From Dehalococcoidia bacterium (GTDB lineage Bacteria > Chloroflexota > Dehalococcoidia > CAUJGQ01), in NCBI GenBank assembly GCA_035310145.1, contig DATGEL010000110.1:1-38644 (forward strand): a DNA stretch of 38,644 bases, in the 5' to 3' direction. Of this stretch, positions 19,532 to 24,834 are shown in pieces. Under the pieces are notes generated by a model that saw only the letters and a list, made by a program, of their open reading frames with translations, did no database searches and was not told the DNA's origin. Every line of letters starts with the position of its first letter. The first letter of the stretch is position 1. A program made the position numbers and the translations under genes.

Positions 19532-20566
19532 TTGCCACCAGCGGCGCGGCCGCACCGCCGCGGCGAGCGCGGCCGCTTGGCCTTGCTTGCGCTCGTCACC
19601 GTCCTTGGCGCTCTCTTGCCCTCCCGCCACGCGGCCGTGGCGCAGTCCAGCCCCTCGGGCCGGATCAGCTTCCTGCATCTTTCCGCCGATGCGCCCGCGC
19701 TGGACGTCTACATCGACGGCGGCCGGGCGATCACCGGCCTCGCTTTCGGCGAGACCTCGGAGTATTTCGGCCTGGCGCCGGGCGGCCACCACGTGCAGAT
19801 CACGGCGTCGGGCAGGCTCGACCAGTTGCTGAGCGACACCGCGACGATCGACGCCGGCAGCAGCTACACCTGGGTGATCTCCGGCCTCGTCTCCACCTCC
19901 GATGTCACGATCGCGGTGACCCCGGACCTGCTGATCGCCCGCCACGTGCAGCTCAGCGACAACGCCGGCCTCGCCACCGACGGCCTGCCGCGGCTGCGCA
20001 TCGTCAACGCCTCGCCTGGCTCCGGCAGCTTCGACGTACGGACCGACGCCGGTTTCACGCTTGCCGGCGGACTGAGCTACGGCAACGCCAGCGACTACAC
20101 GGCGCTGCAGCCCGGCAGCTACACGGTGAACGTCTATCCGGCCGGCGGGCAGTCGCCGATCGCTTCGATCGGGGCGCTGGCGGTGCAGGGCCAGAACGCG
20201 TACACGCTGGTGCTGGGCGGCTTGTTGCCCGCGGTGATCGCGCCAAGCCCGGCGAACGAGGTGCAGGCCTTCACATCGGTGCGGCTCACCGATCAGAACG
20301 CGCTGCGCTCGGCGCCGCTGACGCGGGGCTGCAACCAGGTGATCTTCAACCTGCCGGTGGCAACACCGATCGTCAACATCTTGCAGCGTCTGGCCGATCC
20401 GGCGCTGGTGGCCTCGATCTGGCGCTTCGACAACAGCCTGAAGACGCTGCGCGCCGGCTACTTCAGCGATCCGGGCGCGCCGGTAGACTACGGCGCCACC
20501 AGCGCTTCGCCGGAAGCGTCGTTCATCTGCGTCAGCGCCAACACGAGCTGGAACCCGGCGTCGTAA
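19532..20566 (+). CDS. secreted DUF4397-domain protein
   Basis: Protein of 344 aa starting at TTG, with GGAGG (19521-19525) 6 nt upstream. An Arg-rich n-region and hydrophobic segment (about 16-36) form a signal peptide ending near 'AVA-QSS'. Two DUF4397 immunoglobulin-like units follow: 'GRISFLHLSADAPALDVYIDGGRAITGLAFGETSEYFGLAPGGHHVQI' and 'PRLRIVNASPGSGSFDVRTDAGFTLAGGLSYGNASDYTALQPGSYTVNV', both with the family's 'R-x-x-x-x-S/A-x-x-A/G-...-Y-L/T' pattern. The C-terminal 90 residues are not repeat-like and contain two Cys. Function unknown; extracellular, possibly adhesive or structural. Confidence 0.85.
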   Translation: MPPAARPHRRGERGRLALLALVTVLGALLPSRHAAVAQSSPSGRISFLHLSADAPALDVYIDGGRAITGLAFGETSEYFGLAPGGHHVQITASGRLDQLLSDTATIDAGSSYTWVISGLVSTSDVTIAVTPDLLIARHVQLSDNAGLATDGLPRLRIVNASPGSGSFDVRTDAGFTLAGGLSYGNASDYTALQPGSYTVNVYPAGGQSPIASIGALAVQGQNAYTLVLGGLLPAVIAPSPANEVQAFTSVRLTDQNALRSAPLTRGCNQVIFNLPVATPIVNILQRLADPALVASIWRFDNSLKTLRAGYFSDPGAPVDYGATSASPEASFICVSANTSWNPAS

Positions 20567-20570
20567 GACC

Positions 20571-20629
20571 GACGGCGGCCAGCGGCTGCCTCAACCCGGT
20601 CGCGTGCCGGCCGCTGCGTTGCCGCCGTC
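20571..20629. terminator. bidirectional terminator-like hairpin between convergent genes
   Basis: Arms GACGGCGGC (20571-20579) and GCCGCCGTC (20621-20629), with an inner pair CAGCGGC (20580-20586) and GCCGCTG (20610-20616). It starts 5 bp after the DUF4397 stop and covers the 3' end of the selenoprotein gene. No U-tract is evident. Confidence 0.45.
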
Positions 20630-21154
20630 GAGGCCGAGGATGGCGAGCACGTCGGGCAGGACCTCGCTCGCCCGCTCGCGCACCTGCGCGGCGGTCAGGT
20701 TGCCGATCGGGTGCGGCACCTGCGCGTAGCGGTAGCCGGGAAAGCCGTGGCGGCGGGCCATCATATCCGCCGTATGCACGAAGCGCGTGGTGACGATCGC
20801 CGCCGCCGGAATGCCGCGCTTCTCGAAGATCGTGCCGTCGGCCACACTGGCCGCGCTGCATGACCCTCAATCGCCCACGCCGGCGATCACCACCTGGCAC
20901 TTGGCCACCAGCTCGTCCACGATCGCCGCCGGCGCCGGCAACGAAAAGCTCGGCTTAGTGCGGGCCACGACCGTTTCCAGGCCGTAACGCTCGGCCAGCA
21001 ACGCCCCGAGCGCGCCGAGGATCGCGTCGGCGTTGAGCTTGGAGTTGCCGAGCAGGCCAACCGTGGCGCCGTCGAGTGTGGCGAGCCGGCGTGGCGCCAG
21101 CTCGGCGCAGCGCTCCGCGGAGTGCCCTTCGGGGCTGATCAGGATCGATGCCAT
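20591..21154 (-). CDS. UGSC-family selenoprotein, read through an in-frame UGA
   Basis: A normal reading gives two separate ORFs (20870-21154 and a GTG-started one at 20591-20845) in the same frame, parted only by TGA at 20867-20869. Read as selenocysteine (U96), the join becomes 'VVIAGVGDUGSCSAASVADG', the diagnostic Sec-Gly-Ser-Cys redox motif of the UGSC (seleno)protein family, giving a single 187-aa protein. Downstream 'GTIFEKRGIPAAAIVTTRFVHTADMMA' and 'YAQVPHPIGNLT' continue the family pattern. A SECIS-like hairpin follows the UGA (see separate entry). The family is related in motif to glycine/betaine reductase component B; its reaction is unknown. It is the last gene of a minus-strand catabolic cluster, 26 bp after an amidohydrolase. 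GAGG lies 7 nt before the ATG. A nonsense mutation is the alternative. Confidence 0.88.
20840..20852 (-). promoter_or_regulatory. candidate bacterial SECIS hairpin
   Basis: In the mRNA, GGCCA-GUG-UGGCC forms a perfect 5-bp stem with a small apical loop whose first residue is G, located 20 nt after the UGA. Bacterial SECIS elements recognised by SelB are short stem-loops just downstream of the UGA with a G at the start of the loop about 16-37 nt away, so position and loop base both fit. Outer C-G pairs may extend it. Confidence 0.6.
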
Positions 21155-21179: not shown

Positions 21180-22304
21180 TCAGTTCAGGTCCAGATTGTA
21201 GAGCGTGATCATGTTGCCGCGCAGGAACTTCTCCTTCTCATCGAGCGGGATGTCGCCGAAGTTCTTCTGGATGAACTCCTGGCTGCGCGGCCAAGTCGAG
21301 TCGAAGTGCGGGTAGTCCGAGGCCCAGAGCAGGTTGTCGCTGCCGACCAGGTCGCGCGTGCGCACGCCGGCCACGTCGTCCTGGAAGGTGCAGTAGACCT
21401 GCCGCCGCCAGTAGTCCGTGGCCGACATCTGCATCGCCGGATAGCGGTTGCCCCAGCGGTAGTAGGCCTGGTCCAGCCGCCGGAAGGCGTTGGCGAGCCA
21501 GCCGATGTCGTTCTCGGCCGAGACGAGCTTGAGCCGCGGGTGCCGCTCCAGCACGCCACCGACGATCATCTCCATGATCGTGGTCGTGATGATGCGCGGC
21601 AGGTTCATGTAGCTGGTGATAACGTCCTGCGTCAGGCCGCTGTCTTGCGAGCCGGTGAGGATGTGCATGCAGACCGGCAGGCCCAGCTTCTCCGCCTCCG
21701 CCCAGAATGGCTCCCACGCAGGGTTGGTGTAGCGCAGCTCGGGCGGCGGGTCGGAGGAGATCAGGACGCCGCGCAGGCCGAGCTTCGCCGCCCGCTCCAG
21801 TTCTTTGAGCGCCTCGTGCACGTCGCGGATCGCGACCGAGGCGATGCCCAGCAGCCGGCGTGGGTCGTGCGACTGATACTCGGCCACCCAGTCGTTGTAG
21901 GCGCGGAAGGCGTCGCGCTGCAATTCGGCGTCGGGGTGCTGATACATGAACATGGTGATGCCGGCGAAGAGCACCTCGGCGTCCACGCCGTCGGCGTCCA
22001 TGTCCCTGATCCGCTCGGCCGGGTCCCAGCCGCCGCGCCGCACGGCGGCGTAGCCGCCCCGGCCCCACTCCTCGATCTTCTCCGCCGGGATGCCGGCGCA
22101 GCCGAAGGTGGCGACCGTGGCCGGGCGGATCGGCGGCGCGTTGACGAAGTCGCCCTTCTGCCCGTTCCACTCGTGAATGATCGCGATGCGGTCGCGGAAC
22201 TTCGGTGAGAGATACCGCTGCCACATGTCCACTGGCTCGAGCGTGTGCGAGTCGGCGGAAATGATGCGGATCGCTCGTTCGGCTGCGTTCTTCGTGGCCG
22301 GCAT
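21180..22304 (-). CDS. amidohydrolase-family (ACMSD-like) metal-dependent hydrolase
   Basis: Protein of 374 aa, amidohydrolase_2 TIM barrel. The N-terminal metal motif is 'ISADSHTLEPVDMWQRYL' (Asp18-x-His20, E-P following), the central His is in 'VCMHILTGS', and the late Asp is in 'LLWASDYPHFDSTWP'. These match the decarboxylase/hydrolase group that includes ACMSD and gamma-resorcylate decarboxylase. I chose ATG 22304 because GGAGG sits 5-6 nt upstream; a TTG start seven codons earlier is also open. It lies between a DinB-like gene and the selenoprotein in one apparent operon. Substrate unknown, plausibly an aromatic carboxylate or ring-cleavage product. Confidence 0.9.
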   Translation of the reverse strand: MPATKNAAERAIRIISADSHTLEPVDMWQRYLSPKFRDRIAIIHEWNGQKGDFVNAPPIRPATVATFGCAGIPAEKIEEWGRGGYAAVRRGGWDPAERIRDMDADGVDAEVLFAGITMFMYQHPDAELQRDAFRAYNDWVAEYQSHDPRRLLGIASVAIRDVHEALKELERAAKLGLRGVLISSDPPPELRYTNPAWEPFWAEAEKLGLPVCMHILTGSQDSGLTQDVITSYMNLPRIITTTIMEMIVGGVLERHPRLKLVSAENDIGWLANAFRRLDQAYYRWGNRYPAMQMSATDYWRRQVYCTFQDDVAGVRTRDLVGSDNLLWASDYPHFDSTWPRSQEFIQKNFGDIPLDEKEKFLRGNMITLYNLDLN

Positions 22305-22321
22305 CGCTTCCTCCGCTTCCC

Positions 22322-22738
22322 TCAAGCCTGTCCGAGCGCCCGCTCGATCTCGTCCAGGTGGTCGCCGCGATGCGCCGTGTGCACGCGCCGCCGCGGCGGC
22401 AGTTGCGCCAGCGCCGCGGCCGGCAGCGCCGCCATCAGGCGTTCCAGCGTCGCGGCGGCGGCGATTGCCTGCTCAAGCGCCTCGCGTGGCGGCAGCGTCA
22501 GCCAGAGCGGCAGCCGTGCGGCGTTGATCGCGTCTGCCTCAGGCAACGTCCACCAGGCGGGCGGCAGACCGTGCCGTTGCCAGACCTCCAGCGCCCCGAC
22601 CTGGCGTGCCTCCCAGTAGGCGAGGTGAGCCAGCTTCGCCGCCACGGTCCAACCGTCACCAAGCGGCCGGCGCAACTCTTCGTTGCTCAGCGAGGTCAGC
22701 GCCTGCAGCCGGCCCACCTGCGTCCTGGTCGCCGTCAC
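22322..22738 (-). CDS. DinB-superfamily protein (putative thiol-dependent metalloenzyme)
   Basis: Protein of 138 aa, four-helix DinB fold. Likely metal ligands are His in 'AAKLAHLAYWEARQ' and the two His of 'VHTAHRGDHLDEIERAL' near the C-terminus, the usual H...H-x3-H arrangement. Members include mycothiol- or bacillithiol-dependent isomerases and transferases. The GTG start overlaps the stop of the upstream amidohydrolase by 4 bp (GTGA), so translation is probably coupled. It may be a thiol-dependent isomerase of the same catabolic route, by analogy with maleylpyruvate isomerase. Confidence 0.82.
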   Translation of the reverse strand: MTATRTQVGRLQALTSLSNEELRRPLGDGWTVAAKLAHLAYWEARQVGALEVWQRHGLPPAWWTLPEADAINAARLPLWLTLPPREALEQAIAAAATLERLMAALPAAALAQLPPRRRVHTAHRGDHLDEIERALGQA

Positions 22739-23727
22739 GCTGCCTCGATCTGCAGCAGCCGCGCGGCATTGCCGCCGAGCACGGCCGCCTCAACCGCGGG
22801 CGCAAACCCAACCCGCCGCACCTCATCCACGGGGTGCGGCGGGCCGCCGCCCAGCGGGTAATCGCTGCCCAGCACCAACTTGTCGGAGCCGTACGTCGCC
22901 GCGAGGTAGCCCAGCATCGGCGGATTGTAGGCGATCGTGTCGAACCAGTACTGGTTGACGAACGATGAGGGCGGCCGGCTGATCTTCAGGCCGCGCCCGG
23001 CGCCGAGCCGGTAGCCGTTGTCGAGCCGGCCGATCAGGCTGGGAAAGGCGCCGCCCGCGTGGAAGAGCACGACGCGCAACCGCGGATGGCGCTCCAGCAC
23101 GCCGCCGTAGATCAGCAGCGCCGCCGCCAGGCCGGTGTCGTAAAGATTGCCGACCAGGTTGCCGAAGTTGTAGCGGGTCAGCGCCCCACGCGGCGCCGCC
23201 TCGAAGGGGTGAATGCAGACGAGCAGATCCAGCGCCTCGGCCGCCGCCCAGAACGGTTCGAACTGCGGTTCGTCCAGCCCCTGCTCGCCCACCTTGGGCG
23301 GAATCTCCACGCCGCGCAGGCCGAGCTTGGCCACCCGCTCCAGCTCTTTGGCGGCCAGCTCCGGCGCCTGCAGCGGCGCCGAGGCCAGCGGGCGGAAATG
23401 CGCCGGATCGCGGGCGCCGACCGCGGCCAGCGCGTCGTTGTTGACCTGCGCGATCGCCAGGCCGTGCTCCGGCGCCACGTCGGGATACATGATGAACGGC
23501 ACACAGGAGACGGCCTGCACGCCCACGCCCTCGGCCGCCATGTCCTGCAGGCGCACCTCGGGCCGCAGCATCTTGTCGTTGATCGGCCGCGTGGCCGTCT
23601 CCTGGATCAGGAAGAAGCGGCCGCCGTCGCGCTCGATGATGCGCGTCTCGAAGTGCTTGCCCTCGCGCTCGAGAAAGGCGACGACCTCGGGCGCGATCAT
23701 GTGGTTGTGCAGGTCGATCACGGGCAC
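22735..23727 (-). CDS. ACMSD-like amidohydrolase (decarboxylase/hydrolase)
   Basis: Protein of 330 aa with a complete amidohydrolase_2 metal site: 'VIDLHNHMIAPEVVAFLE' (His7, His9), 'LVCIHPFEAAPRG' (His173), 'VLFHAGGAFPSLIGRL' (His223) and 'LVLGSDYPLGG' (Asp289). The arrangement and 'GVEIPPKVG', 'FWAAAEALDLLVCIHP' stretches are typical of 2-amino-3-carboxymuconate-6-semialdehyde decarboxylase relatives. Start GTG 23727 has GGAGG 7 nt upstream. A promoter-like TGCTATGCT lies in the 57-bp gap after the dioxygenase gene. Following an extradiol dioxygenase, it may decarboxylate or hydrolyse the ring-cleavage product. Confidence 0.92.
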   Translation of the reverse strand: MPVIDLHNHMIAPEVVAFLEREGKHFETRIIERDGGRFFLIQETATRPINDKMLRPEVRLQDMAAEGVGVQAVSCVPFIMYPDVAPEHGLAIAQVNNDALAAVGARDPAHFRPLASAPLQAPELAAKELERVAKLGLRGVEIPPKVGEQGLDEPQFEPFWAAAEALDLLVCIHPFEAAPRGALTRYNFGNLVGNLYDTGLAAALLIYGGVLERHPRLRVVLFHAGGAFPSLIGRLDNGYRLGAGRGLKISRPPSSFVNQYWFDTIAYNPPMLGYLAATYGSDKLVLGSDYPLGGGPPHPVDEVRRVGFAPAVEAAVLGGNAARLLQIEAA

Positions 23728-23784: not shown

Positions 23785-24834
23785 CTACGGCCGGAACACG
23801 GCGAAGACCTTGTTGGAGTTGAAGATCCAGCTCTGCACGAACTCGCAAACGTCCGGCTTGCGTCCCAGCGCGTCCATCGCGCCGGCCAGCATCGCCCAGT
23901 TCAGCATCTCCTGCTCGCCCGACTCGACGAAGCTGCTGAGCGGCGTCTGCCGCCAGACATCGTAATTGCCGCCGCTCAGCGCCTCGAACAGGCGGCGATC
24001 GGCGGGCGTGTCGGGGTGAAGCTGGTAGTTCTTGTCCACCAAAAAGGCGTGCGACCAACTGCTGGAGGCGACGAGCGCCGCCGTCCACGGGCTCTCGCGC
24101 ATGGCGCGGGCCACGGCGGCGCCCACCTGCATGCAGCGCGACGGGCTGGGCGAAGGCGGATCGAGATCGCCCTCGCGCGCCGGGTCGGAGAGGGCGCGCC
24201 GGCCGCCGCGCTGGCTGATCACTTTGCTGCCGTAGCAGTTGACCTGGAAGGGCAGGACGGCGTAGGGGAAGCCTTTGCGGTCGTAGTCGAGGAAGAGCAG
24301 CGTGTTGGTGAAGGCGTGCGAGAGCGCGTCGTGCGCCGGCTGGTAGGCGTAGGCGGCGTCGATGTCTTGCTCCAGGAGCCGCCGCGTCAAATACTTGCCC
24401 GCCTCGCGGTTGCCCTTGTAGCGGAACTCCGTGTCCTGCGGCTCGCCCCAGGCGTTGGCGCCCTGGCGATGGGCGAAGGGCCGCGTCACGATCTCGTCGT
24501 AGGCCTCGACGCAGAAGGGCGGGATGATGTCCTCGCGGAAGTTTTCGTACTGGTCGTCGCCGAAGATGATCACCACGTCGGGCTGAAAGCGGTCCAGCTC
24601 CTCGCGCGCCCGACGGAAGTGGCTGACGATCGCGGCGCGGTGCTGCTTTGCCGAGGCGGCGCCGCCGTCGTCGCCGTACTCGGCCCGCATCTCCGGCGGC
24701 CAGTTGGCCGGGTCGCGATAACGTTCCGGCAGCCCCGGATCCTGCATGATCGTGCGCACGAGGCCCGCCAGGTTGGTGTCCACGCCCACCAGCCCCGGAT
24801 AGTGGGTGGTGCCGATGCCCAGAATCTCGCCCAT
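23785..24834 (-). CDS. class III extradiol ring-cleavage dioxygenase, LigB-like subunit
   Basis: Protein of 349 aa matching the catalytic (B) subunit of protocatechuate 4,5-dioxygenase-type enzymes. The N-terminal 'ILGIGTTHYPGLVG' supplies the iron ligand His11. 'PDVVIIFGDDQYENF' and 'FTNTLLFLDYDRKGFPYAVLPFQVNCYG' are typical core strands, and 'AALVASSSWSHAFL' carries the conserved late His. The usual small LigA subunit is absent next to it, so it may act alone or on an unusual substrate. It heads the minus-strand cluster with two amidohydrolases, a DinB-like protein and the selenoprotein. Confidence 0.88.
   Translation of the reverse strand: MGEILGIGTTHYPGLVGVDTNLAGLVRTIMQDPGLPERYRDPANWPPEMRAEYGDDGGAASAKQHRAAIVSHFRRAREELDRFQPDVVIIFGDDQYENFREDIIPPFCVEAYDEIVTRPFAHRQGANAWGEPQDTEFRYKGNREAGKYLTRRLLEQDIDAAYAYQPAHDALSHAFTNTLLFLDYDRKGFPYAVLPFQVNCYGSKVISQRGGRRALSDPAREGDLDPPSPSPSRCMQVGAAVARAMRESPWTAALVASSSWSHAFLVDKNYQLHPDTPADRRLFEALSGGNYDVWRQTPLSSFVESGEQEMLNWAMLAGAMDALGRKPDVCEFVQSWIFNSNKVFAVFRP

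Follow-up and report, generated by a model that had tools for sequence, protein, structure and literature searches.

A UGSC-family selenoprotein gene in a Chloroflexota-like bacterium and its possible relation to GrdB and PrdB

On the minus strand of a 38,644-nucleotide stretch of DNA, hereafter the window, two open reading frames in the same frame are split by a single TGA. This raises the question of whether they are two truncated genes or one gene in which the TGA is read as selenocysteine (Sec) and, if the latter, what the protein does at the end of the row of genes to which it belongs. The window is contig C110 of a draft genome (5.32 Mb in 148 contigs, estimated to be 99.8% complete) of a soil-type Chloroflexota-like bacterium. 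The original prediction, which gave no strand, had joined the two frames into one gene of the UGSC family. The features on which this reading depends are as follows.

20591-21154, minus strand: UGSC-family selenoprotein gene of 187 codons with Sec as codon 96 (from translation, PF24696 and NF041046); ATG at 21154, final stop TGA at 20593-20591
20867-20869, minus strand: in-frame UGA read as selenocysteine (the U of UGSC), conserved in homologues and paralogues
20839-20853, minus strand: SECIS-like hairpin CGGCCA-GUG-UGGCCG, 6 bp with a 3-nt loop beginning with G

The UGA codon and the hairpin behind it

With the UGA translated as Sec, the joined frame reads ...VIAGVGD-U-GSCSAASVADG... and the Pfam model PF24696 matches the protein over its whole length with 191.1 bits (cut-off 25). 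The NCBIfam model NF041046 (UGSC_fam) gives the joined protein 153.9 bits against a curated cut-off of 125, whereas the separate halves score 82.5 and 49.9 bits, both below that cut-off, while matching the same family in the expected order. The joining of the two frames is thus borne out, and the alignment of the 187-aa protein with UGSC homologues spans its whole length. It had also been predicted that standard annotation would call two truncated proteins. The standard code does yield a 95-aa ORF and a remnant in place of the 187-codon gene, but NCBI's own model recognises UGSC proteins, so modern annotation may not miss the gene.

The prediction that this organism makes selenocysteine agrees with the gene content of the genome, in which tRNA-Sec (74.4 bits, anticodon TCA), SelA (520 bits), SelB (325 bits) and SelD (365 bits) were all found. 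SelD (L019:309-1241, G000:C119) is itself a selenoprotein with one in-frame TGA (CGG-U-ASK). A 48-bit match to the tRNA-Sec model (L002) was rejected as tRNA-Sec and is a tRNA-Ser.

The UGA is conserved well beyond this gene. The genome carries four UGSC genes, the window gene and three paralogues, and each of the four has a single TGA, which lies in this motif. A class-wide sample of 393 genomes gave UGSC matches in 132, and all of the matches listed have one TGA each and are free of other stops. Random stops elsewhere in the gene, which had been named as a sign against a Sec codon, are therefore absent among these matches. The UGSC codon is also present in 45 of 45 homologous genes extracted by the pattern U-G-S-C, with family-like sequence on both flanks of the UGA, and in the 39 of them that were aligned the Sec column (39/39) and the motif U/C96-G97-S98-C99 are invariant, the window protein having the motif at the conserved position. 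Because the 45-gene set was chosen by motif, the class-wide listing is the unbiased test of UGA conservation. In a class-wide scan that used strict filters and included some incomplete genomes, 116 of the 132 UGSC genomes yielded a tRNA-Sec, compared to 153 of the 261 others (Fisher P 1.2e-9). Distant homologues with Cys (L113 and L120, D-C-HHGSAC) or Thr (L112, D-T-RSGS) instead of Sec exist, so outlying members of the Pfam family can lack Sec. In one 6.5-Mb genome (G045) the paralogues have expanded greatly, to 15 UGSC matches.

A SECIS-like hairpin had been predicted after the UGA. Its stem and the G at the first position of its loop were found as described, but 13 nt rather than 15 lie between the UGA and the stem, and 19 nt between the UGA and the loop. 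Folded as a single sequence, the window hairpin was modestly better than shuffled sequences (z -2.0), which taken alone is weak evidence, and an Rfam search with the hairpin gave no match. The stronger evidence comes from a test in which the codons of the 45 homologues were redrawn synonymously from the genes' own usage (2000 draws). Stem pairs were formed in 262 of 270 cases compared to 173.7 +/- 6.4 expected (maximum 196), and all six pairs in 37 of the 45 genes compared to 2.6 expected (maximum 10), counts that are not fully independent because the genes are related. Whenever the loop encodes Ser, the codon is AGU (42/42), although elsewhere in these genes AGU is the rarest Ser codon (14/338). 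Val is encoded by GUG wherever the pairing base is C (18/18) and by GUC wherever the preceding Trp codon UGG supplies a G (7/7; P 2e-6). The hairpin is thus conserved among homologues far beyond chance, and the codon pattern argues that it is kept by RNA-level selection on synonymous codons.

The alternative is a Cys-type gene in which a nonsense mutation or a sequencing error has produced the TGA, leaving a pseudogene or two truncated proteins. It would fit the 95-aa ORF and remnant of the standard code and the draft state of the assembly, but it is already contradicted by the same TGA in four of four paralogues and in all 45 homologues extracted, with no other internal stop, by the full Sec machinery and by the maintenance of the hairpin, and can be given almost no weight. 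The UGA at 20869-20867 almost certainly encodes selenocysteine, and the assignment of the window gene as a genuine UGSC-family selenoprotein is as well supported as sequence allows. UGSC was already a named selenoprotein family in 2008, which makes the window gene a new member of it. Its protein does not differ in any way from the family as defined by NF041046 and PF24696, having the full-length match, the UGSC motif and Sec at the defining position. What is unusual is its neighbourhood, with LigB and amidohydrolase genes and without an adjacent partner.

The gene row and the partner protein

The genes around the UGSC gene, given in the direction of its row, are the following.

23785-24834, minus strand: LigB-superfamily protein (PF02900, 55.7 bits), first gene of the row
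22735-23727, minus strand: second amidohydrolase (PF04909, Pfam)
22322-22738, minus strand: DinB_2-like protein, with a 4-nt overlap with each neighbour
21180-22325, minus strand: amidohydrolase (PF04909), 25 nt upstream of the UGSC gene and in the same direction
19532-20566, plus strand: DUF4397 protein, its end convergent to the UGSC gene

Because the DUF4397 gene is convergent, the UGSC gene is the last of its row. A promoter and terminator scan of the row found nothing. The original prediction placed a Sec redox enzyme inside a ring-cleavage-like operon, and of this the gene order stands. However, a His that binds metal (N-D-H) is usual in class III extradiol dioxygenases, and the LigB-like protein has GDDQYENF where this metal-ligand His is expected, which makes ring-cleavage activity doubtful. 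The context is not conserved either: among about 40 other UGSC loci tested, none had a LigB homologue nearby and 2 had homologues of the window amidohydrolases, so a LigB/amidohydrolase setting appears to be rare among UGSC loci. Pfam assignment of 140 neighbour genes of UGSC loci (raw counts) gave rhaM-like 8, DUF6282 4, Amidohydro_2 4, SDR 4, CoA-transferase III 3 and luciferase-like 3. As judged from these domains, UGSC neighbourhoods are a mixed catabolic setting with no single pathway.

At most loci UGSC adjoins, or is fused to, a domain of about 340 aa that has no Pfam family. Of the 393 genomes, 127 have a match to the profile of this partner, and 125 of these also have UGSC (132 UGSC genomes in all); by this count the partner seems almost obligate. 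In the account given by an ocean metagenome study of 2008 (PMC2398784), a domain called 'Unknown_1' is fused to UGSC, and as far as that account goes the partner may be the same domain. The model of the partner has a pLDDT of 90. PDB searches with it returned no convincing relative; weak matches to cyanuric acid hydrolase and fumarate hydratase (TM about 0.2) were not trusted. Three UGSC-partner fusions (L105:1336-3318, L114:277-2301 and L119:1285-3189) have apparent TAT signal peptides, which suggests that they are exported versions.

The partner domain was not found in the window. The closest relative is in a Chloroflexi metagenome assembly (L029), the sole locus returned by a contig search with a single protein, and there UGSC and partner lie side by side. 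The window UGSC protein is 58% identical to the UGSC protein of that locus, compared to at most 43% for the genome's other UGSC copies and the family relative, and the partner at that locus shares 66% identity with an orphan partner on contig C6 (G000:C6:38828-39808, L163:8802-9884), compared to at most 43% for other partners. Since each is the best match to its counterpart at this one locus, the cognate pair appears to be split between the window and contig C6. The genome is a fragmented draft, so the split could in part reflect assembly; both genes are well inside their respective contigs. A second orphan partner gene of the genome (L132, G000:C128:44535-45536) has none of the four UGSC genes nearby.

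These observations bear on whether the window UGSC protein could work in the LigB/amidohydrolase pathway without any partner, for example in an operon-specific reductive step. The 25-nt spacing and the 4-nt overlaps upstream suggest one transcript, the window is without a partner, and amidohydrolases are among the neighbours of other UGSC genes (the 4 of 140 above), all of which speak for such an arrangement. However, the best-matching cognate partner is present elsewhere in the genome and no other locus tested has the LigB context, which makes a partner-free role unlikely.

Fold of the UGSC domain and similarity to GrdB and PrdB

An AlphaFold model of UGSC made with 39 homologues (mean pLDDT 92) shows a strand followed by a helix five times over, and Sec opens the helix that comes after the third strand. 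The fold is thus predicted to be Rossmann-like and not in the thioredoxin order, in which the redox motif comes after strand 1. PDB structure searches with the model returned generic alpha/beta folds and no decisive neighbour.

Two-domain (fusion) UGSC proteins have weak NCBIfam matches to GrdH, GrdF, GrdB and PrdB around the Sec, and for this reason GrdB and PrdB-like genes were collected from the same class. GrdB is selenoprotein B of glycine/sarcosine/betaine reductase and PrdB belongs to D-proline reductase, both of them selenium enzymes of reductive cleavage. These genes also have a UGA directly past the end of the Pfam model. In a single hhalign comparison the UGSC and GrdB profiles aligned with E 6.7e-8 (94.6%) and with Sec on Sec, sharing HP.GN and an E-x-x-G-I-P-like stretch. 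The score of 55.7 compares to a maximum of 19.7 in 60 column shuffles and 21.2 with UGSC reversed, and with the motif masked it was 39-40. The alignment is restricted to the last ~100 GrdB columns, and a Pfam search found no match to PF07355 in the window protein, so it is not a full-length GrdB. A single comparison with PrdB-like profiles also aligned the Sec, more weakly (74.8%, E 2.6e-5). These profile comparisons support, but do not prove, a kinship between the UGSC domain and the Sec-bearing domain of GrdB and PrdB, of which it would be a compact version.

The likeness to GrdB, GrdF and GrdH (PF07355) lies in the placing of Sec in U-G-T/S-x and in the similar stretches downstream. UGSC differs from GrdB in being a single domain of ~180 aa without the long N-terminal part, and in its partner: GrdB requires a pyruvoyl subunit (GrdE) and the acetyl-phosphate-forming protein C. 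PrdB and PrdB-like selenoproteins have UxxC with Sec aligned, but the similarity is weaker and the UGSC partner is not known to be PrdA. In several genomes (L133-L140) the Sec after the PF07355 match is followed by GTD, GTG or GTS and not GTC, so that these GrdB-type genes are missing the second Cys of UxxC.

A different view of the protein was put forward in 2008, when the study cited above (PMC2398784) suggested a thioredoxin-like fold; UGSC would then be a general thiol-disulfide oxidoreductase. The UxxC motif, which is shared with thioredoxin-like selenoproteins (Prx/Trx/Grx-like), is consistent with this, as are the reductant domains fused within the UGSC/partner system. A partner in the genome of the window (L060) has an N-terminal AhpC/thioredoxin-like domain with CPTC (E 3e-5, below the Pfam cut-off), similar N-terminal extensions are present in the partners of L062 and L097, and a UGSC-partner fusion (L127:61-2313) ends in an FtrB-like (ferredoxin-thioredoxin reductase) domain. 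This last fusion also has the N-terminal repeat LTGTEACGTGGCP. However, the predicted topology of UGSC itself, Rossmann-like with Sec after the third of five strand-helix units, differs from the thioredoxin order, and the UGSC profile matches GrdB and PrdB. The 2008 proposal is therefore considered improbable for the UGSC domain.

A model for the window copy and its meaning

Taken together, we consider it likely that the window encodes a Sec-decoded UGSC protein with a GrdB/PrdB-type domain, which would use the partner encoded on contig C6 and serve a reductive step for the catabolic row. SelB and Sec-tRNA would read the UGA at 20869-20867 as Sec under the direction of the hairpin, which begins 13 nt further on. 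In the protein, the selenolate would sit at the N-terminus of its helix and attack an activated bond of a substrate that UGSC either holds jointly with the ~340-aa partner subunit or receives from it; for the window copy this subunit would be supplied from contig C6. The resulting Se adduct, or a selenenylsulfide between Sec and Cys99, would be resolved by thioredoxin-type reductants. As the last gene of the LigB/DinB/amidohydrolase row, the window gene probably contributes a reductive step to the catabolism of a small aromatic or carboxylic acid.

A broader version of this model can be offered more tentatively, at slightly less than even chances. UGSC and its ~340-aa partner may represent a third branch, a compact one, of selenocysteine reductases of the GrdB/PrdB type. 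The enzyme, two-subunit or fused, would be coupled to thioredoxin, would be strongly expanded among these bacteria (up to 15 matches per genome in the class) and would cleave various environmental small molecules reductively. The window copy would in that case have been recruited to the LigB/amidohydrolase row.

UGSC was among the commonest selenoprotein families in aquatic metagenomes by the counts given in the 2008 study (255 sequences in 37 samples; PMC2398784), and a 2026 review (PMC13188914) lists it among the selenoproteins whose functions are largely uncharacterised. New in this study are the Rossmann-like predicted fold with its profile link to GrdB and PrdB, the linkage to the partner and the split cognate pair; of these, the partner and the link to GrdB merit follow-up. 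The proposed homology to GrdB and PrdB, the near-obligate partner and the fused reductant domains together give a testable hypothesis for a widespread selenium-dependent enzyme.
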